Shown here in pieces: positions 1,340 through 41,088 of a stretch of DNA of 64,000 nt; positions within the stretch are counted from its first letter, which is position 1; the number at the start of each line of letters is the position of its first letter. The notes below the pieces were generated by a model. It did no database searches. It was not told where the DNA came from and worked only from the letters and a program-made list of their open reading frames with translations. This DNA is from Muribaculaceae bacterium (GTDB lineage: Bacteria > Bacteroidota > Bacteroidia > Bacteroidales > Muribaculaceae). The stretch is taken from positions 124,001 to 188,000 of the forward strand of contig JAFLTS010000002.1 of NCBI GenBank assembly GCA_022509185.1, read 5' to 3'. A program made the translations under genes and the position numbers.

Positions 1340-2383
1340 TCAATACATAGGAGTGAAACCTTTTGATTTCTCTAAGGCATGATTGGCATCTCCCATCAAT
1401 TTGGTTTCCTTAGTAGTGTCAAGCTTCAAAATCGGAGCTTCTTTTTTGAGATCACATTTTTGCAGATCCACATAATAGATTCCGAAATTTGTAACTATAT
1501 CAAAGAAATAACGTCTGTTCTTTATATCGGCGTAAGATCTCCATTGGGTAGATGACACATTGGGTTCTCCTTGAATCAGATAGGTGTAAGGTACGCAAGA
1601 ATTCACCAATACGCTCCTGGCAATGTTCACAGCAAGATCAGGCTCCGACGTTGCTTCCACATGGTGTGCAAAGAAATTGGCACGTACGCAACGGTCAGGG
1701 CTTTTCACAGTGCCCGGGAGCATGTTTGTGCCACCCACATTTCCCCAATAGTCAATGATAGCTCTCATTGACGGCCATTGCGGATCGTTGGTCATTGCCC
1801 AATAATCTCCCATGTCGTTGATCTTTATCTCACCGTTGTCAAACTCTACTATCACGCTCTTGCCCGAAGCATCGGTAATACCCCAGTGTAAGGCTGAAAC
1901 CGTTCCGCCGTCAAAGGTGGCACCACCTATATTGAAATCGTGTTTCTGCAAAATCTCAACACATTCATCCGTGGTGGCGTTAAGATCCAGAAGCCAACCT
2001 ACAAACATTGCCAGTGACATAGGAGGTCTGCCCTCAGTATCAGGATTTGAATAAACGGTACCCTTACAGAAAAGGCCGTTAACCACCAATCCTTTCTCAT
2101 TCATTCCCTCAGTGATACCTCCGTCATAGCCCACTGCGTAAACTGCTCCATATTTGGATGTCCATTTAATAGCACCAGGCTGATCTGAACTTTCCTTCTC
2201 TATACCACGGGGATAAACATAAAGATTAGTGGGTATAGGGGTTTTCCAGTCAAGACATCTTGCTATTACAAATGTTGAGTCGGAGCCATGATAATTCACC
2301 CTGGTACAAGCATCGCTCTCCTGATGTATGCAAAGAAAGCCTGCAAGTAAAGCAGCTCCTGTTAGAATTGATTTAATTTTCAT
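1340..2383 (-). CDS. Choloylglycine hydrolase / penicillin V acylase-family linear amide hydrolase
   Basis: A 347-residue exported Ntn-hydrolase that cleaves linear amide bonds; characterised members deconjugate bile salts or cleave penicillin V and N-acyl amides. A signal peptide ends at SDA, which leaves the nucleophile Cys as the new N-terminus (CTRVNYHG). Other family positions are visible: RCLDW (the Arg and Asp matching BSH Arg18 and Asp21), NLYVYPRG, the oxyanion Asn region AMTNDPQW, and SPDRCVRANFF (matching Arg228). Length and motifs fit the Bacteroides enzymes of the bile salt hydrolase cluster, but substrate (bile salts against other N-acyl amides) cannot be fixed by reading. It starts 7 bases after neuC, so it is probably co-transcribed as the last gene of the neu operon. 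Confidence 0.88.
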   Translation of the reverse strand: MKIKSILTGAALLAGFLCIHQESDACTRVNYHGSDSTFVIARCLDWKTPIPTNLYVYPRGIEKESSDQPGAIKWTSKYGAVYAVGYDGGITEGMNEKGLVVNGLFCKGTVYSNPDTEGRPPMSLAMFVGWLLDLNATTDECVEILQKHDFNIGGATFDGGTVSALHWGITDASGKSVIVEFDNGEIKINDMGDYWAMTNDPQWPSMRAIIDYWGNVGGTNMLPGTVKSPDRCVRANFFAHHVEATSEPDLAVNIARSVLVNSCVPYTYLIQGEPNVSSTQWRSYADIKNRRYFFDIVTNFGIYYVDLQKCDLKKEAPILKLDTTKETKLMGDANHALEKSKGFTPMY

Positions 2384-28844: not shown

Positions 28845-30287
28845 ATGAACCGCGCCACCATATACAGCACTTTCAAGACCATTGCTGAAAAGTACCCCCA
28901 AAGTCCGGCCATTTTAGAAGATGGTAAATCAGTAACTTTCCTGGAATTAGACGGAATAGTAAATCAGATTCTTTCTAAATTTTATGATTCCGGCGATAAA
29001 TATATAGGCATTGTAATGAGCCATGGAATAATGCAGGTGGCTGCCATGCTGGCAGTGTTGAAAAGCGGCGCTGCTTATGTGCCGGCCGAACCGGCTCTGC
29101 CGGCAGACAGGATTAAATATATGATGAAAAACGCGGGCGTAAAATTGGTGATCGATGATCAATTCTGCAGCAATCTGCCCCGAACTGACAAAGATTTTCC
29201 CGACAGGTCTGTTCCGGATGGAATCGCCTATGTGCTGTATACTTCAGGCACTACAGGCAAGCCAAAAGGTGTGATGGTTGAGAATCATTCGGTGGTGAAT
29301 TATGCTCATGCTTTTGAACAAGAAATGAAAATAGGACCCGGTGACGTAATGTTGCAGTATTCCATTTGCTCTTTTGACATTTTTGTAGAAGAAGTTTTCG
29401 CCACACTTCTTAACGGAGGAGCATTAGCCATACCATCTAAAGAGATTCATTCAGGGAGTATGGAGGGCTTAATGGATTTCTGCAAGCGTCATAAAGTGAC
29501 TATTCTGGATGGATTCCCTTATTTTATCGCAGACATCAATAAAGAACCCCGGTTAATACCCGAATCAGTAAATCTGATTATAAGCGGAGGAGATGTGGTA
29601 AGAGCTAACTATATTTCCCGGTTAAAAGATAAAAACATAAGAATATATAATACTTACGGACCATCGGAAACAACTGTCTGCTCAAATTATTACCGGATAG
29701 ACACGGCAATACCGCTCGAAGACGGAACTTTCCCGATTGGAAAACCTGTGGCCGGTGTAAAAGTGAAAATCCTTGATGAAAATTTCCATGAAGTGCCAAA
29801 AGGAGAATATGGAGAAATATGTATCTTTGGAGAAGGAGTGAGCCATGGTTATCTGGGGAATCCACCGGAACAAGCCAATTTTGTAACTCTTGATGACGGT
29901 ACAAGGTTCTATCGCAGCGGAGATATGGGTTATGAGCTTCCTGACGGGAATATGGTCTTTCTCCATCGAAGAGACGACCAGGTGATGATACTAGGACGAA
30001 GGGTAGAACCTGAAGAAGTGGAAAATGTCTTGAATGAATATCAGGGTATCGACCGCGGAATAGTGAGGGCTTTCCTAGATGAGGCCGGATTGCACTATCT
30101 GGTGGCTTATATCGTGCCTAATTTAGGTTTTACACTTGCAGGCCTTAAAAAATGGCTAAAGTCAAAACTCGCGGATTTCATGATTCCGGAATTCTTCGTA
30201 TCTCTCCACAAGATACCACTCACAGTGAGAGGGAAAGTGGATAATGAACAGCTTCCTGTTGTATTAAAAGAAGGAGAATATAAATGA
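28845..30287 (+). CDS. Stand-alone amino-acid adenylation enzyme (NRPS A-domain / DltA-like)
   Basis: A 480-residue AMP-forming ligase that activates a carboxylic acid, by motif probably an amino acid, as an acyl-adenylate. Core motifs in order: A3 YVLYTSGTTGKPKGVMVEN, A4 SFDIFVEE (the Asp that in NRPS domains binds the alpha-amino group), A5 NTYGPSETTV, A6 GEICIFGEGVSHGYL, A7 FYRSGDMG, A8 GRRVEPEEVE and A10 with the catalytic Lys in RGKVDNEQLP. There is no carrier-protein or condensation domain, and no carrier gene in the window. It leads a three-gene unit with ATGA overlaps to a GNAT and an alpha/beta hydrolase. The substrate is unknown; D-Ala ligase is one alternative, but no dlt partners are present. 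Confidence 0.85.
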   Translation: MNRATIYSTFKTIAEKYPQSPAILEDGKSVTFLELDGIVNQILSKFYDSGDKYIGIVMSHGIMQVAAMLAVLKSGAAYVPAEPALPADRIKYMMKNAGVKLVIDDQFCSNLPRTDKDFPDRSVPDGIAYVLYTSGTTGKPKGVMVENHSVVNYAHAFEQEMKIGPGDVMLQYSICSFDIFVEEVFATLLNGGALAIPSKEIHSGSMEGLMDFCKRHKVTILDGFPYFIADINKEPRLIPESVNLIISGGDVVRANYISRLKDKNIRIYNTYGPSETTVCSNYYRIDTAIPLEDGTFPIGKPVAGVKVKILDENFHEVPKGEYGEICIFGEGVSHGYLGNPPEQANFVTLDDGTRFYRSGDMGYELPDGNMVFLHRRDDQVMILGRRVEPEEVENVLNEYQGIDRGIVRAFLDEAGLHYLVAYIVPNLGFTLAGLKKWLKSKLADFMIPEFFVSLHKIPLTVRGKVDNEQLPVVLKEGEYK

Positions 30288-30733
30288 TTGAACTCAGGCC
30301 TGTGGAAGCGCTGCCTCAACTTTTGAAATGGCGGCGAGAGGTGATTGAAAACGTATTTGACACCTCACCATCCGAGCAACTTATGCTGGAAAACCAAAGT
30401 TTTTACAGGCGGCATCTGGCTGATGGCTCTCATCTGGCTTTTGAGGCTCTGTGTGACAATGAAGAGGCCGGATGCGGTAGTCTTTGTCTTTACGATGAAT
30501 TGCCCTCTCCGGATAATCCAACCGGACGGTGCGGGTATTTAATGAATATTTATGTAAGGAATAAATTCAGGGAAAAGGGCGTGGGACATGCTATTGTGTC
30601 ACGACTAATAGATGAAGCCAAAATAAGGAATTGCCATAAGATATATCTTGAAACTACTCCGATGGGGCGTCATCTTTATGAATCACTGGGGTTCCACGAT
30701 CTGCCCGACATGATGAAACTTTCAGAATTATGA
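30284..30733 (+). CDS. GNAT-family N-acetyltransferase
   Basis: A 149-residue acyl-CoA-dependent acyltransferase. The fold marks are the strand YLMNIYVRNKFREKGVGHAIV (acetyl-CoA pyrophosphate loop R/K-x-x-G-x-G/A is RNKFREKGVG), followed by KIYLETTPMGRHLYESLGFHDLP, typical of the C-terminal GNAT half. It overlaps both neighbours by 4 bases, so its product probably acts with the adenylation enzyme and hydrolase. Acceptor unknown; an amino group of the activated amino acid is one guess. Confidence 0.82.
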   Translation: MIELRPVEALPQLLKWRREVIENVFDTSPSEQLMLENQSFYRRHLADGSHLAFEALCDNEEAGCGSLCLYDELPSPDNPTGRCGYLMNIYVRNKFREKGVGHAIVSRLIDEAKIRNCHKIYLETTPMGRHLYESLGFHDLPDMMKLSEL

Positions 30734-31410
30734 TTAAAAAACACATCGATGGTTATGACTGCCATTGCGTACCTTTCGAAGGGGCCGACACAGTGGCGTA
30801 TATGATTTATCCACAGCTTGCCGAACTTGAAGACAAATGGCTTCAGAGAATGAGCGAGTTGCATAAAGTGAATTTAGTGGCTGTATATGTGCCGGCTGAC
30901 CAATGGAACGATGCCTTGACACCGTGGCCGGAACCCGGAGAGGCTAAGGGATGCCCTCCTTTTGCCGGAGAAAGCCGCAATTTCCTGAAGCTTTTTCAGG
31001 AAAAAATTATCCCTCTTACAGATAGGGCCTTTAACTTAAAAGGAGTAATTCACAGGGATTTGATCGGAGTTTCGCTGGGTGGCCTCTTCACTCTTTGGCA
31101 ATGGATGATGTGCGACACTTTCAGGTCGATAGCCTCGCTTTCGGGTTCTTTCTGGTATGTGGGATTTCTTGAATGGTTTGAAAAGCAATCTGTACCTCCG
31201 AAAAAAGGGAAAGCCTTCTTCCTTCTTGGTGAAGAAGAACCGGCTTCTCATGTAGAAGCTTTCAGAAGCGTGGGTGTAAATACGGAAAAAATTGTAGCAA
31301 TATTTAAAGAAGCGGGAATAGATACCACCTTTGAATGGGTGCCGGGCAATCATTTCTCGCGCCCGGTGCATAGGGCCGAGAAGGCTCTTGAGGCTTTATA
31401 TCCGGCTTGA
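30730..31410 (+). CDS. Alpha/beta hydrolase (esterase-D/Fes-like)
   Basis: A 226-residue serine hydrolase. The nucleophile elbow is GVSLGGLF (GxSxG, about residue 114), preceded by the strand region VIHRDLI and followed by IASLSGSFWY, as in putative esterases related to enterochelin esterase; the probable catalytic His is in VPGNHFSRPVH near the end and the acid in LGEEEPAS. There is no signal peptide, so it is cytoplasmic. It closes the three-gene unit; the next gene has its own promoter. It may hydrolyse or transfer the acyl product of the adenylation enzyme. Confidence 0.75.
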   Translation: MIKKHIDGYDCHCVPFEGADTVAYMIYPQLAELEDKWLQRMSELHKVNLVAVYVPADQWNDALTPWPEPGEAKGCPPFAGESRNFLKLFQEKIIPLTDRAFNLKGVIHRDLIGVSLGGLFTLWQWMMCDTFRSIASLSGSFWYVGFLEWFEKQSVPPKKGKAFFLLGEEEPASHVEAFRSVGVNTEKIVAIFKEAGIDTTFEWVPGNHFSRPVHRAEKALEALYPA

Positions 31411-31458: not shown

Positions 31459-32313
31459 ATGGCAGAAGAAAACAACGGCGTTCGCAAGGATGTGATTAAC
31501 TATGATGATGTGGTAGAGGCAATACCCGCTTTGAAAAACTATCCCAAGTTAGTGAATGCATTCCTGCGTTTTATCGCTATGGACAAAGTGAATTTCACGC
31601 ATGGAAAATTCAGTAACCGCCTGGGAGTGGATTTTGCCACGGCTCTTGCTGAAGATGAATACAAATGGCAGCTTACTCTTGATAATTATGATGTGCTCGA
31701 TCAATTCAAAACGGGCCCATTTATCACAGTTAGCAACCATCCTATAGGGAGTTACGACGGAATAATCCTTTTGTATCTTGTAGGTAAAAAAAGACCTGAC
31801 TATAAAGTGATGGTGAATCTGATTCTCAACCATCTCCAGGCCATGAGGCCGGGCTTCATTGCTGTAGATCCGCAGAAAAGCCAGGATCATGAAAAACGCA
31901 AAGTGACCATGCATGGCATGAGAGAGGCCATAACCCATGTTAAGGAAGGACATCCTCTGGGGTTCTTCCCGGCCGGAGCTATCTCCGATGTGAAATGGAA
32001 TCTCAAGATTTCCGACCGTCCCTGGCAGGAAGTTATTATACGGCTAATCCGGCAACTTAAAGTGCCTGTCATACCCATTTATTTCCATTGCAAGAATTCC
32101 ACCTTCTGTAATATTTTGGGAATTATCGACTGGAGGCTGCGCACAATGCGCCTTCCGGGAGAACTCTTCGCATCCTATGATAAAAAAATCAGGGTTTCTT
32201 TTGGTGATCCTATTTCTGTGGAAGAACAGAACAAATATCCCACACTTCAGGAATTGGGCGCTTTTCTAAGAGAAAAGACTTATGAATTAAAAGATCGTTA
32301 CGGGAATGGATGA
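31459..32313 (+). CDS. Lysophospholipid acyltransferase-family protein
   Basis: A 284-residue acyltransferase of the PlsC-related LPLAT superfamily. The active-site block is SNHPIGSYDG, the NHPxGxxDG form seen in hemolysin/OlsA-like members, and the substrate block is LGFFPAGAIS. It lacks strong membrane helices and is likely peripheral. Members transfer an acyl chain to a lyso-lipid; in Bacteroides related enzymes act in glycine/ornithine lipid synthesis, but the partner N-acyltransferase is not adjacent, so phospholipid or lipid A roles remain possible. It overlaps the sigma-54 activator gene by 8 bases. Confidence 0.82.
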   Translation: MAEENNGVRKDVINYDDVVEAIPALKNYPKLVNAFLRFIAMDKVNFTHGKFSNRLGVDFATALAEDEYKWQLTLDNYDVLDQFKTGPFITVSNHPIGSYDGIILLYLVGKKRPDYKVMVNLILNHLQAMRPGFIAVDPQKSQDHEKRKVTMHGMREAITHVKEGHPLGFFPAGAISDVKWNLKISDRPWQEVIIRLIRQLKVPVIPIYFHCKNSTFCNILGIIDWRLRTMRLPGELFASYDKKIRVSFGDPISVEEQNKYPTLQELGAFLREKTYELKDRYGNG

Positions 32314-34950: not shown

Positions 34951-34981
34951 TTGTTTATTAGCATGAATTTCTCTAATTTTG
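34951..34981 (+). promoter_or_regulatory. Consensus promoter of the 5-alpha-reductase unit
   Basis: TTG at 34951-34953, exactly 20 bases of spacer, then TAATTTTG at 34974-34981. The GTG start codon of the next gene is only 5 bases further on, so the message would be leaderless or nearly so if both calls are right. An in-frame stop at 34980 excludes an earlier start. Confidence 0.7.
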
Positions 34982-34985
34982 AATT

Positions 34986-35765
34986 GTGGAAAAATTATTC
35001 ATACCCACCGGTTATTATATAGTTACGGCCACCATGGCTGTGTTAGCCGTAATTGTTTTCATAGCACTGCATAGAATAAACGCCGGCTATGGAATGATGG
35101 GCTCCCGAAAATGGGGTCCGGCAATCAATAATCGAATCGGTTGGATCATTATGGAGCTGCCGGCATTCGCATGTATGGCTGTGATCTGGGCTCTGAGTCC
35201 GCGTGGCGGTAATCCTGCTCCTTGTGTCATGGGGGCTCTCTTCGAGCTTCATTATTTCCAACGCACCTTCATTTTCCCCTTCCTTATTCGAGGAAAAAAT
35301 AAAATGCCATGGGCCATTATTTGCATGGGGATGGTATTTAATGCCATAAACGCTTATATGATAGGAGGATGGCTTTTTTATTTATCTCCTTCATCTTTAT
35401 ATACGGATTCATGGCTCCTTTCTCCGTTATTCTTCCTGGGCACTTTCATTTTCTTTATCGGCATGGCTATCAATCTCCATTCAGACCATGTGATAAGAAA
35501 TCTGAGGACCCCCGGAGATTCAAAACATTACATCCCTAATAAGGGGTTGTATAAATACGTGGCCTCAGCAAATTATTTCGGTGAAACTGTGGAATGGGTA
35601 GGCTATGCTATCCTGACATGGAGTGTGGCCGGGGCAGTGTTCGCTCTTTGGACCTTTGCCAACCTTGCTCCCAGAGCCAGGGCCATTCATTCCAGATATT
35701 GCAATGAATTCGGGGATCAATACTCATCATTGGGTCGTCGTTTCATAATTCCTTTTCTCTATTGA
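34986..35765 (+). CDS. Steroid 5-alpha-reductase (3-oxo-5-alpha-steroid 4-dehydrogenase) family protein
   Basis: A 259-residue membrane enzyme of the SRD5A family, which saturates the C4-C5 double bond of 3-oxo-4-ene steroids to the 5-alpha (allo) form using NADPH. About six hydrophobic segments are seen. Family marks are RIGWIIMELPAF (mammalian form GRxAWFLQELPSF), LFELHYFQRTFIFPFLIRG (HYxxRxxxxPxxxR), and near the C-terminus GLYKYVASANYFGETVEWVGYAI (the N-Y-x-GE-x-x-E-W cofactor block) and YSSLGRRFIIPFLY. The GTG start is forced by an upstream stop. It overlaps the TTG/stop region of the next gene by 4 bases and leads a unit with an OYE reductase and an SDR, the set used for bile acid A-ring reduction in gut Bacteroidetes. 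Confidence 0.9.
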   Translation: MEKLFIPTGYYIVTATMAVLAVIVFIALHRINAGYGMMGSRKWGPAINNRIGWIIMELPAFACMAVIWALSPRGGNPAPCVMGALFELHYFQRTFIFPFLIRGKNKMPWAIICMGMVFNAINAYMIGGWLFYLSPSSLYTDSWLLSPLFFLGTFIFFIGMAINLHSDHVIRNLRTPGDSKHYIPNKGLYKYVASANYFGETVEWVGYAILTWSVAGAVFALWTFANLAPRARAIHSRYCNEFGDQYSSLGRRFIIPFLY

Positions 35766-35773
35766 AAGAATCC

Positions 35774-37009
35774 ATGCCACAAGATAAAAAACTCTTCACT
35801 CCGGCCTCAATCGGGCCAGTCACCTTAAGAAACCGCACCATCAGGAGCGCAGCTTTTGAAGGAATGGGCAAAAACAACAACCCCACACAGGCCCTTAAGG
35901 ATTACCACGTATCGGTGGCTAAAGGTGGAGTTGGTATGACCACAGTGGCCTATGCCGGAATCTGTCGGTCTGCTCTATCATTTGATTCCCAACTTTGGTT
36001 ACGTCCCGAGATAGTGTCTCCCTTGAGAGAGATAACAGATGAGGTGCACGCTAACGGAGCAAAGGCTTCAATACAGATAGGTCATTGCGGAAATATGACC
36101 CATATGGCTACGGCCGGATGTATTCCTGTAGGTGCTTCTTCAGGTCTGAATTTATATTCCCCCACGATAGTGAGAGGCCTTCGTAAAGAAGAAATCAAAG
36201 ACCTTGCAAAAAAATTCGGAGAGGCAGTTGGTATTGCTCGTGATGCCGGCTTTGATTGCGTCGAAGTGCATGCAGGCCATGGATATCTTATTTCTCAATT
36301 CCTGTCTCCTTACACTAACCATCGGCACGATGAATACGGAGGAAACTTGCAAAACCGCATGAAATTCATGCAGGAATGTATGGAGCAGGTGATGAAAGCG
36401 GCCGGTTCCGACATGGGGGTTTTGGTTAAGGTAAATATGAACGATGGCTTTAAGTCAGGTCTGCAGGAAGAAGATTGCATTAAAGTGGCACTGGAACTTG
36501 AAAAATCGGGAGCTCACGCCTTGGTGCTTTCAGGAGGTTTTGTAAGCAAAGCCCCCATGTATGTAATGAGAGGTAAAATGCCTATTTATACCATGACTCA
36601 CTATATGGATCAGCTTTGGCTTAAATATGCCGTAAGAATGTTTGGAGACTTAATGGTGCCAAAACATGAATTCAAACCTCTCTATTTCCTACAGCAGGCA
36701 AGATTGTTTAGGGAAGCTCTCAAGATGCCCTTGGTGTATGTGGGAGGAGTGACAAGCCGTAAAGATGCCGACCGCATAATTGATGAAGAAGGTTTTGAAT
36801 TCCTCCAGATGGGAAGGGCTTTGCTCAATGATCCGGGGTTCGTGAATAAAATGAAAGCTGATGATTGCTATAAGTCCGGGTGTGATCATGTGAACTATTG
36901 TATTGCGAGAATGTATTCACGTGATATGGCATGCTATCAGCATACTCCTGATCTACCAAAAGGAATTAACAAGGAGATAAACCAAATCCTGCAAAGGAAT
37001 GGCAAATAA
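35774..37009 (+). CDS. Old Yellow Enzyme-family NADH:flavin oxidoreductase (BaiCD/BaiH/5-beta-reductase-like)
   Basis: A 411-residue FMN-dependent ene-reductase TIM barrel. It has LFTPASIGPVTLRNRT at the start, QIGHCGNMTH, the active-site HAGHGYLISQFLSPYTNHRHDEYGG with the paired His, and the FMN phosphate region VGGVTSRKDADRI and FLQMGRALLNDP. A Cys-containing tail (SGCDHVNYCIARMY) follows, but the C-terminal FAD/NAD domain of full-length BaiCD/BaiH (about 640-670 residues) is missing. I prefer the ATG at 35774; a TTG at 35762 would overlap the previous stop. Next to a 5-alpha-reductase and an SDR it most likely acts on 3-oxo-4-ene (or 1-ene) bile acids or steroids; reaction direction and stereochemistry are not readable. 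Confidence 0.88.
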   Translation: MPQDKKLFTPASIGPVTLRNRTIRSAAFEGMGKNNNPTQALKDYHVSVAKGGVGMTTVAYAGICRSALSFDSQLWLRPEIVSPLREITDEVHANGAKASIQIGHCGNMTHMATAGCIPVGASSGLNLYSPTIVRGLRKEEIKDLAKKFGEAVGIARDAGFDCVEVHAGHGYLISQFLSPYTNHRHDEYGGNLQNRMKFMQECMEQVMKAAGSDMGVLVKVNMNDGFKSGLQEEDCIKVALELEKSGAHALVLSGGFVSKAPMYVMRGKMPIYTMTHYMDQLWLKYAVRMFGDLMVPKHEFKPLYFLQQARLFREALKMPLVYVGGVTSRKDADRIIDEEGFEFLQMGRALLNDPGFVNKMKADDCYKSGCDHVNYCIARMYSRDMACYQHTPDLPKGINKEINQILQRNGK

Positions 37010-37820
37010 TAAGTCTTTAAAGAATCACCTGGCTTTAGTAACCGGAGCCGCCGGAGGAATAGGCCTTGAATTCTCGAAAGTGCTTGCAGCAAGGGGAGCA
37101 GACCTTATTATTCTTGATCTTAACTTACAACGCCTTCAAAAAGCAAGAGATGAGATTCTTTTAAATTGCAAGCAGGAAGCCGATCCATCAATATTTCTTC
37201 TACAAGCCGATCTTACAGATCCTGATTTCCTCGGTAAGATTGATGATTATTGCACGCAGAACTCTCTTAATCCTGATATTCTTATCAATAACGCGGGAAT
37301 ATTTTCCTTTAATCCGATAGACACAACTGATTCTAAATTGATAGAGACTTTTATAGATCTCCATGTCAGAGCCGTTACTCTACTTTCCCGCTGGTTTACA
37401 ACCAGGAGAAAAGGAGAAGGAAACGGATGGATGCTTAATATGAGCTCAATGTCTTGCTGGATGCCTATGCCCGGGTTGGCCATGTATGCTTCCACCAAAT
37501 CCTATATCAGAGTTTTCACTCGTTCCCTTCATTATGAAATGAAAGACTATGGAGTAGGCGTTACAGTAGCTTGTCCCGGTGGAATTGCTACCGATCTTTT
37601 CGGTCTTCCTCAAAAATGGAAAAGATTTGCCGTGGCTATTGGCGTGCTTCAGACACCTGAAGCTTTTGCTTCCAAAGCTATTGGGAAAATGATGAAAAAA
37701 AGAAAACAATACATCAACGGTTGGCTTAACCGTGTTTCAATCTTCTTTGTGGGAATTCTTCCTACAAAAATAAGAATGATGGTTAAACATCAGATGCTCG
37801 ATAAGGGTATCGCACGTTAG
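36999..37820 (+). CDS. Short-chain dehydrogenase (probable hydroxysteroid dehydrogenase)
   Basis: A 273-residue SDR that uses NAD(P). The nucleotide loop is TGAAGGIGLE, followed by LILDLN (an Asp after strand 2, which favours NAD over NADP), NNAGIF, the Ser of MLNMSSMS and the catalytic YASTK about residue 160; the C-terminal third with PGGIATDLFG and hydrophobic helices resembles the 17-beta-HSD12/ketoacyl-reductase branch. It overlaps the OYE gene by 11 bases. In context it probably interconverts the 3-hydroxyl and 3-oxo group of a sterol or bile acid (3-alpha or 3-beta HSDH). The assignment of position and stereochemistry is inference. Confidence 0.85.
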   Translation: MANNKSLKNHLALVTGAAGGIGLEFSKVLAARGADLIILDLNLQRLQKARDEILLNCKQEADPSIFLLQADLTDPDFLGKIDDYCTQNSLNPDILINNAGIFSFNPIDTTDSKLIETFIDLHVRAVTLLSRWFTTRRKGEGNGWMLNMSSMSCWMPMPGLAMYASTKSYIRVFTRSLHYEMKDYGVGVTVACPGGIATDLFGLPQKWKRFAVAIGVLQTPEAFASKAIGKMMKKRKQYINGWLNRVSIFFVGILPTKIRMMVKHQMLDKGIAR

Positions 37821-37824
37821 AATT

Positions 37825-40800
37825 ATGCCGGCGCCCTTTCTCCGCAGATACCGGCTTCCCTTGGAGATTTCTTCCTGGATTACCTTTGCAGCAGCCCTAA
37901 CCTTATATTGGATCACTCTTGATCCTTCCGTTTCTTACTGGGATTGCCCGGAATATGTCACTGTGGCTTCCCGTATGGAGGTAGGACATCCTCCCGGTAA
38001 TCCTATATGGATGCTGGCAATGAGAGTAGCCACTTCTCCTTTCCCTTCACAACATCACGCTTATATAATAAATCTATGTAGCGCTTTTCTGATGGCCTTC
38101 TCCGCCTTCTTTCTTTGCAGACTGATTTTTGTGCCTTTCAGATATCTGTTTTCAAGAAGACAAGAGAAGTTTTCCATCTCTCCCGGATATCTCGATCTTA
38201 TTATTTCACTTGTTTCAGCAGGTGGAGCTTTATGTTTTGCCTTCTGCGACTCTGCCTGGTTTTCCGCAGTTGAAGCAGAAGTCTACGCTATGTCGGCTTT
38301 CCTGTCATCCCTTTCATTGTGGATAATGATAAGATGGGCTTTGGAGGAAAATCCCGGACGTCAGAATCATTTGCTCATACTTTTGGCTTATATCACCGGT
38401 CTTTCCTTAGGAGTGCACCAACTTAACCTATTGCTGATTCCTGTTTTTGCAGTTATATGGATTTATAAAAGGTTTCCTGAAAAAATAAGTCCCGCCCTGG
38501 TTATAGGAAGTTTGATTTGTTCTTTCATACTTATAGGAATTTTACTTTTCGGATTGATGCCTGGATCTCTTTTTTGGGCTCAGACTTTTGAAATTTTCTT
38601 CGTAAATAATCTTCAGTTTCCCTATGATGGAGGGGTATTGATTTATGCCGGAGCCTTGTTATTCTCCGGACTGTTTTCAATTTTTTTAATAAATTACCGA
38701 ATCCGGATTCTTCCCTATCTTTTTATTTTTATATTTATTTGGCTTTCAGGAATTGTTGTCTTTGATAACAATATTTGGTTCGGAGCCGTCATTTCTTTGT
38801 TGATCACAATTTTTCTTCATTTCAGATCATATTATTACCGAAAAAATTGCCGGGAAGCCATCTGGATGCTTCTATTTATTCTCCTGGGATTTTCATCATT
38901 CGGAGTAATATTAATCCGGGCAAAGGCCGCACCTTCTATGAATCAGGGTGCTCCCGACAATATTTTCTCATTAGCCTCATATATATCAAGAGAACAGTAC
39001 CCTTCCACTCCCCTGCTGTTCGGTGCAACGCCTTACAGTCATCCCCTTTTTGAAGAAGATTTTATAAATCACAAACCTGTTTATCACAAATATTTGCTTG
39101 AGAAAGGTAAGCCGGTATATATCCCGTATTCTGATCAACCTTCCCTTAACTACCGGAGCCGGATGTTTACTTCAAAGGATTCTTTGAAAAATAATGAGGT
39201 AATGTCACGTAAGCATGGTTATCTGCTGGCCGATTATGAGTTCTCTCAGAAACTAACTCCTGAACTTGACATGTGGTTCCCCCGCATCACCTCCCGAAAG
39301 CTACCGGACCGTGAGGCTTATGCAGATTGGGCCGGTATGACGGAAGAAACAATGGATAGGGTCAGTGTTTCTGAAACGATAGACTCTACGGGAAGATTTA
39401 AAACAAGAATATCCCCTATAGGCGGACGTCCGGTAGTTTATTCTTACCGTCCCACCTATATGCAGAATCTAAGATACTTCATAGAATACCAGACTTTCTA
39501 TATGTATTTAAGATACCTGTGCTGGAATTTCATTGGCCGTCAAAACGACTTTGCTTCAACCGGAGAAATAGAACATGGGAATTTTATTTCAGGTATACCG
39601 GCAATCGATAAATTTATGGTAGGGGATACTTCTTCATATCCACTTGAAATTTATAAAGATAATAAAGGCCGGAACATTTATTTTGGTATTCCTTTTATTC
39701 TCGCCGTAGTGGGAATAGCATTTTTATTTGGCAATTCCCGCCTGAGCAGAAGATATCTTACGGTTATAACGGTTTTCTTTATCATGACAGGAATCGCCAT
39801 TGTGGTTTATCTTAATCAGACCCCGGGAGAACCCAGAGAAAGGGATTATACTTTCTTAGGATCTTATATGGCCTTCGCCATATGGATAGCAGCGGGCTCG
39901 CTATTCATATCCCTGAGGGTGTTCAGGATATTATCCCGGCGTTTGAGTCTTTTACTCGCCTTTATAATTTCCATAGGTCCTCCGGCTCTTATGGCTGTTG
40001 AAAATTTTGATGATCATGACAGAAGAGGTCGATATCAACCGGAATTTTTTGCTTCCTCCTTAATTGATCTTGAAATCCCTTCCATAATCTTCACCCAGGG
40101 GGATAATCTAACATTCCCTAATTGGTATGCTTCCGAAGTAATGGATCCCGGTTCGGCTCATACGCCTGCAGATGTTACCTATCTGTCGCTGCCTTCTTAT
40201 ATAATTAATCTTAAAAAACAAGGGAATAAGGGAATAGAAACTATTGCACCTTCCAATAAATTAGCCTATGGAGCTTTTATACTGACCCGGATACCTCCCG
40301 ACAGTGTCTCCTTTGTTATGCCTTTGGAGAAGGCTTTGTCTTTATTATATGAAAGCAATCCGGCTGAACCGGTATGGCCTACATCTCTTGTCAAGATTCC
40401 TGTGGCACCCGGTGATTCAACTGTTATCAATCTTCATAAATTCACCTCTGGAGGATCCTGGCTTCCTTTCAGGCAGTTAATGATGCTTGATTTTTTGGCT
40501 TCCCAATTAAATTCCCCCTCGCCTAAAGCTCTTTATTTTCCGTCGGCTATCGATCATAGATTTTATCATCCTCTTGATCCTTTCTTAAGACCGGCCCTTT
40601 TTGGGAAAATTTATGCCCCCTGGCTTTCTGAACCGCAAACCGACTCTTTAATGGCCGTTTCTTTACTCCGGGAATTAAATAAACTGAATCCTACGCTTCC
40701 TGACACCAGATATCTTGATCCTCTTATTACTGACAGGTCAGGAAGATACAGGGGTGAACTTGTCATGGCTGCCCAACAAAGGTTAAATTCCGGCGATACT

Positions 40801-41088
40801 CTTCTACCTTCATTACTAATAGAAAAAATAGAAAATCATTTGCCTTATACTCAAATACTTCCTCGTGATTTCACAGTGGAAGACTCCACTTTATACGAAG
40901 GAAGAGAATTTGTAAATCTGCTTAATACACTGGCAGATTCCACCCATAACATCAAGTATAAACATAAAGCAAATGCTATTGATTCTCTGATGAAAGAACG
41001 AAAAAAGGAATGGTTGAGATTCTATAATTCTCTGACTCCGGCACAACGTCATACTCTCTCAAACAGATCCAAAAGACTTCTGCGCTAA
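37825..41088 (+). CDS. DUF2723 large membrane protein (TMEM260-like)
   Basis: A 1087-residue polytopic protein. The N-terminal half has about ten membrane helices and starts with the DUF2723 signature TLYWITLDPSVSYWDCPEYVTVASRMEVGHPPGNPIW, with the acidic residues typical of GT-C glycosyltransferases; the human relative TMEM260 is a protein O-mannosyltransferase. NQTPGEPRERDYTF lies in the second membrane block (about residues 665-680). The C-terminal 350 residues are soluble. In Bacteroidota these proteins are plausible protein or lipid glycosyltransferases. It starts 4 bases after the SDR stop, so it shares the transcript of the steroid cluster, although no functional link is evident. Confidence 0.88.
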   Translation: MPAPFLRRYRLPLEISSWITFAAALTLYWITLDPSVSYWDCPEYVTVASRMEVGHPPGNPIWMLAMRVATSPFPSQHHAYIINLCSAFLMAFSAFFLCRLIFVPFRYLFSRRQEKFSISPGYLDLIISLVSAGGALCFAFCDSAWFSAVEAEVYAMSAFLSSLSLWIMIRWALEENPGRQNHLLILLAYITGLSLGVHQLNLLLIPVFAVIWIYKRFPEKISPALVIGSLICSFILIGILLFGLMPGSLFWAQTFEIFFVNNLQFPYDGGVLIYAGALLFSGLFSIFLINYRIRILPYLFIFIFIWLSGIVVFDNNIWFGAVISLLITIFLHFRSYYYRKNCREAIWMLLFILLGFSSFGVILIRAKAAPSMNQGAPDNIFSLASYISREQYPSTPLLFGATPYSHPLFEEDFINHKPVYHKYLLEKGKPVYIPYSDQPSLNYRSRMFTSKDSLKNNEVMSRKHGYLLADYEFSQKLTPELDMWFPRITSRKLPDREAYADWAGMTEETMDRVSVSETIDSTGRFKTRISPIGGRPVVYSYRPTYMQNLRYFIEYQTFYMYLRYLCWNFIGRQNDFASTGEIEHGNFISGIPAIDKFMVGDTSSYPLEIYKDNKGRNIYFGIPFILAVVGIAFLFGNSRLSRRYLTVITVFFIMTGIAIVVYLNQTPGEPRERDYTFLGSYMAFAIWIAAGSLFISLRVFRILSRRLSLLLAFIISIGPPALMAVENFDDHDRRGRYQPEFFASSLIDLEIPSIIFTQGDNLTFPNWYASEVMDPGSAHTPADVTYLSLPSYIINLKKQGNKGIETIAPSNKLAYGAFILTRIPPDSVSFVMPLEKALSLLYESNPAEPVWPTSLVKIPVAPGDSTVINLHKFTSGGSWLPFRQLMMLDFLASQLNSPSPKALYFPSAIDHRFYHPLDPFLRPALFGKIYAPWLSEPQTDSLMAVSLLRELNKLNPTLPDTRYLDPLITDRSGRYRGELVMAAQQRLNSGDTLLPSLLIEKIENHLPYTQILPRDFTVEDSTLYEGREFVNLLNTLADSTHNIKYKHKANAIDSLMKERKKEWLRFYNSLTPAQRHTLSNRSKRLLR

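Follow-up and report, generated by a model that had tools for sequence, protein, structure and literature searches.

A probable steroid A/B-ring operon in a genus of gut Muribaculaceae, with a variant dehydrogenase as its third gene

What does a compact trio consisting of a relative of the steroid 5-alpha-reductases, a flavin reductase and a dehydrogenase do in a gut member of the Muribaculaceae, and which compounds would it act on? The trio lies on a stretch of 64,000 nucleotides, hereafter the window (G000:C12:124001-188000, contig JAFLTS010000002.1), from a Muribaculaceae metagenome-assembled genome (MAG; GCA_022509185.1; 2.19 Mb, 59 contigs, 88% complete). Its placement in the family rests on a same-family genome, G101, which matches Heminiphilus faecis strain AM35, assigned to Muribaculaceae by NCBI, letter for letter across the 4 kb compared. 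Three same-strand genes span positions 34986-37820 and encode, in this order, a 5-alpha-reductase (5AR), an Old Yellow Enzyme (OYE) and a short-chain dehydrogenase/reductase (SDR). A sequence-only reading of the window had described them as an SRD5A-type 5AR, a single-domain BaiCD-like OYE and an SDR, and all three were found in the places it gave, with their motifs complete. Very likely, in our view, the trio is an accessory operon for the steroid A/B rings in gut Muribaculaceae and a homologue of the 5AR/5-beta-reductase (5BR)/hydroxysteroid dehydrogenase (HSDH) locus of other gut Bacteroidales. The identity and the co-function of the three genes are well supported, and the chemistry we propose for them is read across from relatives. 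The genes are as follows.

34986 to 35765, plus strand: 5AR, 259 amino acids (aa), GTG start, with matches to PF02544 and to the structures 7c83 and 7bw1.
35774 to 37009, plus strand: single-domain OYE, candidate 3-oxo-delta4-steroid 5-beta-reductase/dehydrogenase (5BR), PF00724; the open reading frame (ORF) has 415 codons counted from TTG 35762.
36999 to 37820, plus strand: classical SDR of subfamily SDR-A, 273 aa, candidate hydroxysteroid dehydrogenase, PF00106.

The 5AR scored 139.8 bits against the Pfam family Steroid_dh (PF02544; cut-off 22.6) and was the sole match to this family in the genome. Its solved relatives at E<=0.001 were, in full, PbSRD5A (7c83, 1.5e-52), human SRD5A2 (7bw1, 2.5e-43) and the TECR-like enoyl-CoA reductase art-1 (2.5e-8), the last weaker in E-value than the SRD5A structures by 35 or more orders of magnitude. 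The protein thus belongs to the SRD5A family both by the Pfam cut-off and by being closer to SRD5A than to TECR. Residues were counted in the proteins of loci L022-L141 and the window, excluding those with coverage below 85%, a score below 100 bits or an internal stop, which left 116 5AR, 100 OYE and 78 SDR-A proteins (three genomes are present twice: G101/L114, G166/L066 and G226/L090). E57, Y90, G199, E200 and W204 of the 5AR were present in 116/116 and E203 in 115/116, giving both the Glu/Tyr pair and the G-E-x-x-E-W block; H89 and R93, which with Y90 make up the HY-x-R motif quoted in the sequence-only reading, were likewise conserved in 116/116. We take E57 and Y90 to be the counterparts of the steroid-contacting Glu and Tyr of SRD5A2. 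The fear that the closest homologues might turn out to be non-steroid enzymes was not borne out when the 5AR was compared with solved structures. A 5AR acting as an enoyl reductase of lipid synthesis was also considered, and was rejected on the structure matches and on the absence of the block from relatives described below. The protein is a candidate for 5-alpha-reduction of a 3-oxo-4-ene steroid.

The OYE scored 193.9 bits against Oxidored_FMN (PF00724; cut-off 27), and its top NCBIfam match was BaiCD (NF041087), with residues 9-267 aligned to positions 2-261 of the 642 in the profile. As a BaiCD equivalog it was rejected, having 198.8 bits against a cut-off of 825 and 415 aa against a two-part protein of about 640 aa. 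H170, H173 and Y175, the motif quoted earlier, as well as R188, K223, C374, C380 and C391, were invariant in 100/100 aligned proteins. The three cysteines form a C-terminal C-x5-C-x10-C motif (codons 374-391), with no invariant fourth cysteine at position 369; this motif resembles, without matching, the four-Cys Fe-S motif of FadH/BaiCD-type enzymes, and it may bind an Fe-S cluster. In the structural model (pLDDT 85.2, weak around residues 261-300 and 371-390) strands and helices alternate to about residue 366, followed by the C-terminal segment that bears the invariant cysteines. A scan of viral contigs with the OYE gave no match.

The SDR matched adh_short (PF00106) at 122.9 bits (cut-off 26.6) and is a classical SDR by its TGxxxGIG, NNAG and YxxxK motifs and its Rossmann-type order of strands and helices; Y163 and K167 of the quoted motif were present in 78/78. 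In an AlphaFold2 model (pLDDT 90.8) strands and helices alternate, and strand 2 (residues 35-40) ends at D40. The residue at the end of this strand is the usual NAD-determining position, where an Asp goes with NAD(H). Position 40 is Ser in 52/78 proteins and Asp in the subclade of the window (the window and L029-L036, 9 of the 14 same-genus proteins) and in two proteins outside the genus. Asp40 thus suggests that the window SDR would use NAD(H). According to a review (PMC7996314; here and below, statements from cited papers rest on excerpts of them), the cofactor is generally NAD(H) for 3-alpha-HSDHs and NADP(H) for 3-beta-HSDHs. Searches of the PDB with the SDRs gave no assignment of the hydroxyl position.

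The three genes come and go together. Among 60 other genomes of the same genus, 53 carried the 5AR, 53 the OYE and 52 SDR-A, the difference being due to G002, whose OYE match is partial. All three were missing from seven genomes, three of which are at least 97% complete and four 60-76% (G018, G020, G026, G028, G032, G041 and G047). The 5AR and OYE genes lay on one contig within about 120 bp, as read by eye from the match tables, in 51/53 carriers, G002 and G019 being cases of contig ends. In a sample of 198 Bacteroidales genomes, our own included, close homologues of both were found in 23, of the 5AR only in 1 and of the OYE only in 2 (Fisher p 1e-26, uncorrected for relatedness, from hand-read lists of 24 5AR and 25 OYE genomes with identity limits of 47% and 53%), and in 20 of these 23 the two genes were adjacent, taken as at most about 510 bp apart on a shared contig. 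A phylum-wide sample comprised 296 genomes, among them our own and two or more others of its order. Here the 5AR occurred in 3/295 other genomes at 38-40% identity and an OYE match in 9 others (33-35%), with no overlap between the two sets.

Furthermore, the pairwise distances of 5AR, OYE and SDR-A correlated at 0.50-0.65, compared with a highest value among 500 permutations of 0.19 for 5AR-OYE and 0.16 for 5AR-SDR-A; the OYE-SDR-A correlation was 0.55. In the 5AR tree the genus made up a single clade; in the OYE tree (13 of the 14 same-genus proteins) and the SDR-A tree its clade also took in L127. L127 ('Mgla', labelled Bacteroides sp.) fell outside the genus clade in the 5AR tree, and we infer that its Bacteroides label is wrong. 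Values of dN were 0.09-0.30, with dS at 2.5-3.0 in 3/12 comparisons and saturated in 9/12. From the shared presence and absence, the clades and the dN and dS values, the trio seems to have passed by vertical descent within the genus under strong purifying selection, and to be dispensable as a unit.

The same gene order, 5AR-OYE-SDR, was also present in Odoribacter-like, Parabacteroides, Bacteroides and Barnesiella loci, and the nearest Parabacteroides-type homologues (P. massiliensis, a Parabacteroides MAG and G165) were 52-54% identical to the window in the 5AR and 60-62% in the OYE. These identities and the shared order uphold the claim of a 5AR/OYE/SDR cluster for the steroid A-ring. The 5AR and the BaiCD-like single-domain OYE of the window are neighbours on one strand, as in the Bacteroidales cluster for allo bile acids. 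To compare the third gene we used 80 named loci, which are the best 80 of at least 580 confirmed relatives of a Parabacteroides-like 5AR, so that the sample leans toward the Parabacteroides side; P. merdae, B. dorei and O. laneus are absent from the compared set. The SDRs beside the 5AR split into two groups, SDR-A and SDR-B. Each profile was trained on proteins already separated by how they scored against the window SDR (at least 130 bits versus below 60 bits), which builds the split in to some degree; the profile scores were well apart, except for the second SDR of L140 (104/69), and the window SDR scored 370 bits with SDR-A versus 68 with SDR-B.

The arrangement 5AR-OYE-A was found in 27/80 loci (21 of them Rikenellaceae) and 5AR-OYE-A-B in 18, among them Barnesiella, Coprobacter secundus, an Odoribacter MAG, Sanguibacteroides, three Lentimicrobiaceae and Heminiphilus. 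Twelve loci had 5AR-OYE-B (7 Bacteroidaceae, 2 Tannerellaceae and one each labelled Barnesiellaceae, Marinifilaceae and Rikenellaceae); the remainder were 5AR-OYE (8), 5AR alone (6, two of which end at a contig end inside the OYE), 5AR-B (3), 5AR-OYE-A-A (2) and four single arrangements. SDR-B without SDR-A was the state of three Parabacteroides-type loci (L051, L062, L063), Phocaeicola massiliensis and most Bacteroides loci examined, and of 9 of the 13 loci labelled Bacteroidaceae by NCBI, the other 4 having both; L082 and L127, both MAGs labelled Bacteroides sp., carry SDR-A and SDR-B. Alistipes and the window genus had mostly SDR-A only, and the Odoribacter-like locus both. Two of 13 same-genus loci (L034 and L035) have kept SDR-B after SDR-A, on the side of a downstream DUF2723 gene, where the window has a 4-bp junction. 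SDR-B was detected in 3/60 same-genus genomes and, at E<=1e-15, not in the 88% complete assembly of the window. The sequence-only reading had seen a full match to the Parabacteroides set and hence possible production of isoallo bile acids; this is not supported, as the window has SDR-A where those loci have SDR-B, which was not found in its genome.

Two further Bacteroidota MAGs showed a 5AR followed by SDR-A, with two SDR-A genes in L073 (885-2545) and one double-length SDR ORF in L076 (5668-7351); no OYE was found in the examined stretches of either. From the MAG titles, our guess is that both are of non-gut origin.

Activities reported for relatives indicate what the two SDRs may do. P. merdae, O. 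laneus and B. dorei convert 3-oxo-delta4-lithocholic acid (3-oxo-delta4-LCA) to isoalloLCA, and twenty other Bacteroidota strains convert it to 3-oxo-alloLCA; disruption of the P. merdae 5AR blocks formation of alloLCA derivatives, the 5AR gene is clustered with those for a predicted 3-beta-HSDH and an NADH:flavin oxidoreductase, and several strains turn 3-oxoLCA or isoLCA into isoalloLCA (review, PMC10382948). In several strains the route is fed by isoLCA, with its 3-beta-hydroxyl, which fits a 3-beta-HSDH that works in both directions. The only SDR next to the 5AR and OYE of Parabacteroides-type loci is SDR-B, which makes it the likelier candidate for the 3-beta-HSDH of the locus. SDR-A would then be another HSDH, perhaps for a 3-alpha entry step. 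If SDR-B is the 3-beta-HSDH, the window organism is predicted to flatten the ring and to yield 3-oxo-allo or allo products, not isoallo; this prediction is limited in that an HSDH may lie elsewhere in the genome, the MAG is 88% complete and the strains that make 3-oxo-alloLCA may carry SDR-B.

In the mechanism that we propose, the SDR would interconvert the 3-hydroxyl and the 3-oxo group, and the OYE, by hydride transfer through its flavin, would add or remove the 5-beta hydrogen of the 3-oxo steroid, so that a 3-oxo-delta4 intermediate is consumed or formed. The membrane 5AR would use NADPH to turn this intermediate, in a practically irreversible step, into the flat 5-alpha (allo) form. The net effect would be that bile acids are flattened, or that hormones such as testosterone and progesterone are 5-alpha-reduced, and without SDR-B the product would stop at 3-oxo-allo or allo, short of isoallo. 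A bolder version would make the locus modular: SDR-A, with its NAD-type Asp40 in the subclade of the window, would open the route by oxidising 3-alpha-hydroxy 5-beta steroids, SDR-B would close it as the 3-beta-HSDH, and the window genus, having kept mostly the entry SDR, would release 3-oxo-allo or allo bile acids and 5-alpha-reduced hormones and, as a near-universal carrier, be a main source of luminal 5-alpha-reductase in its hosts. As a whole, this version is unlikely.

Several observations weigh against a steroid role. The activities cited above were reported for species outside the genus, and 5AR identity to Parabacteroides is only 52-54%. PF02544 is not steroid-specific in bacteria, with matches in 3/14 control genomes, over the cut-off in 2. 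The OYE lies far below the BaiCD equivalog cut-off and lacks the second half of BaiCD; it also matches the NamA and bilirubin-reductase models, both below cut-off, and its best solved relative is YqjM (1z41, E 2.1e-36). The best solved relatives of the SDR are generic oxidoreductases, with 7-alpha-HSDHs further down (1ahh, 2.9e-15). Nor is the SDR of the SDR-B, Parabacteroides type. Two CBAH-family genes in the genome prove little, as the family has matches in 4/14 controls. One could suppose a housekeeping lipid or polyprenol pathway, with an SRD5A3/TECR-like reductase and further reductases and no role for host steroids: lipid enzymes occur in both the SDR and the SRD5A superfamily, a mycolate-reductase model matches SDR-A proteins (below cut-off) and PF02544 is present in non-gut control genomes. 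But the 5AR is far nearer SRD5A than TECR, the block is missing from three near-complete relatives, and most genomes of the order sample lack the 5AR, as do nearly all of those in the phylum sample. This pathway is disfavoured, and we regard it as very improbable.

Two other possibilities are nested within the steroid operon that we favour and concern its substrate and its end product. The operon may act mainly on host hormones, turning testosterone into dihydrotestosterone (DHT) and progesterone into 5-alpha-dihydroprogesterone. The closest solved relatives of the 5AR are steroid 5-alpha-reductases, and Muribaculaceae are a dominant family of the mouse gut. Moreover, conventional female mice have a very high intestinal ratio of DHT to testosterone, which germ-free ones do not, and every mouse examined had 5AR genes (K12343; PMC12589954). 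However, the combination of 5AR, OYE and HSDH was established on bile acids (PMC10382948), and bile acids, hormones and dietary sterols are not separable as substrates by sequence; a mainly hormonal role is conceivable, although we think it the lesser chance. A full isoallo pathway, in which SDR-A is itself the 3-beta-HSDH and three genes are enough, appears rather doubtful. SDR-A does directly follow the OYE, the Odoribacter-like locus has SDR-A, and Odoribacteraceae make isoalloLCA according to reviews; furthermore, if the twenty strains that make 3-oxo-alloLCA carry SDR-B, its assignment as the 3-beta-HSDH weakens. Yet P. merdae and B. dorei are published producers of isoalloLCA (PMC10382948), and the Parabacteroides-type, Phocaeicola massiliensis and Bacteroides loci examined have SDR-B without SDR-A, save L082 and L127, the latter grouping with the window genus in two of three trees. 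The Odoribacter-like locus, for its part, has both SDRs.

The layout of the operon bears on how it is expressed, and two more features are needed here.

34974 to 34981, plus strand: TAATTTTG, Bacteroidetes -7-like element, 4 nt before the 5AR start codon, possible leaderless promoter.
37825 to 41088, plus strand: DUF2723/TMEM260-like protein (PF11028), starting 4 bp past the SDR.

The OYE frame is open from TTG 35762 to 37009, and ATG 35774, 8 bp past the 5AR stop, is the more likely start by its better fit to relatives. Of the gene overlaps claimed earlier, that of OYE and SDR (11 bp) is real, whereas that of 5AR and OYE depends on an OYE start at TTG 35762. The 5AR start is ATG or GTG at the same codon in 8/9 same-genus relatives compared. 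A consensus promoter had also been claimed, but a sigma-70 scan gave 0 sites versus 7.8 in shuffles, and the exact TTTG..TAnnTTTG pattern was absent at the 5AR, with no exact TTTG 17-24 nt before the TAATTTTG box. This box is of the Bacteroidetes -7 type. The bare pattern is near chance across the window (71 found versus 57.6 expected). TAnnTTTG occurred 4-9 nt before the 5AR start in 7/19 same-genus loci other than the window and, outside the genus, in 1/103 loci (8 nt before); in an alignment it was kept in several near relatives although the rest of the upstream DNA had diverged. Its position 4 nt before the GTG and its retention in near relatives suggest that the 5AR transcript is leaderless in part of the genus, which would make it a candidate leaderless gene in Muribaculaceae.

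The DUF2723 gene was near the trio in 9/13 same-genus loci compared at 7-10 kb, and is perhaps co-transcribed with it. Upstream, a block of acyltransferase, sigma-54 activator, LptE and SecG genes is inverted relative to the trio in L029 and L030 (G008 and G040), two of the closest relatives. At 28845-31410 lie a stand-alone amino-acid adenylation domain (TIGR01733, just above cut-off), a GNAT-like ORF, so judged by eye, and a putative esterase, followed at 31459-32313 by a GlsA/OlsF-like acyltransferase below both NCBIfam cut-offs. The CBAH-family hydrolase of the window (1340-2383, minus strand) scored 83.7 and 80.2 bits, below the bile-salt-hydrolase and penicillin-V-amidase NCBIfam cut-offs; the other CBAH-family gene of the genome lies at G000:C4:3254-4108.

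Both allo bile acids and DHT made in the gut matter for host immunity, colonisation resistance and androgen status. An SRD5A1-like 5AR gene is widespread among Bacteroidota and had been seen earlier in the chicken microbiome (PMC10382948), which makes the window locus less novel. In a 2026 review the carriers of 5-alpha-reductases are given as Parabacteroides, Odoribacter, Bacteroides, Alistipes and several environmental bacteria (PMC12789469); Muribaculaceae are not among the gut carriers named in the excerpts, and a literature search pairing Muribaculaceae with 5alpha-reductase returned no paper assigning the locus to the family, a weak negative with subscription papers mostly outside the search. 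With the 5AR in 53/60 other genomes, the window genus is a plausible further contributor of 5-alpha-reductase, notably in conventional mice, if it lives there. The trio is one more case of a steroid-modifying gut locus that is already known, a real and useful but not surprising find, whose variant third gene changes the expected product; what it adds is the two-slot SDR anatomy and a genus in which carriage is near-universal. From the SDR-A/SDR-B split, product can be predicted directly from genotype.

Among known systems, the P. merdae cluster is reportedly composed of a 5AR, an NADH:flavin oxidoreductase (5BR) and a 3-beta-HSDH (Sato et al. 2021), and its resemblance to the window trio lies in the order 5AR, single-domain OYE, SDR. 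Parabacteroides-type loci differ in carrying SDR-B, whereas the window has SDR-A without SDR-B, a DUF2723 gene next to it and a leaderless-type start; Bacteroides-labelled loci bring together the same three enzyme classes as the window, most with SDR-B and without SDR-A. Homology of the 5AR with PbSRD5A (7c83) and human SRD5A2 (7bw1) is nearly full-length, with the equivalents of Glu57 and Tyr90 conserved, but unlike these the window 5AR is set in an operon with an OYE and an SDR. BaiP and BaiJ, the bile-acid 5-alpha-reductases of Firmicutes, share the reaction class of the window 5AR, which is of the SRD5A kind, and differ from the membrane-associated 5-alpha-reductases of Bacteroidetes (PMC9645264). 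The N-terminal OYE domain is common to BaiCD and the window OYE, which consists of this one domain in 415 aa. Finally, ci2350, a Clostridium 5-beta-reductase set beside BaiCD, is an Old Yellow Enzyme (PMC12238238) like the window OYE.

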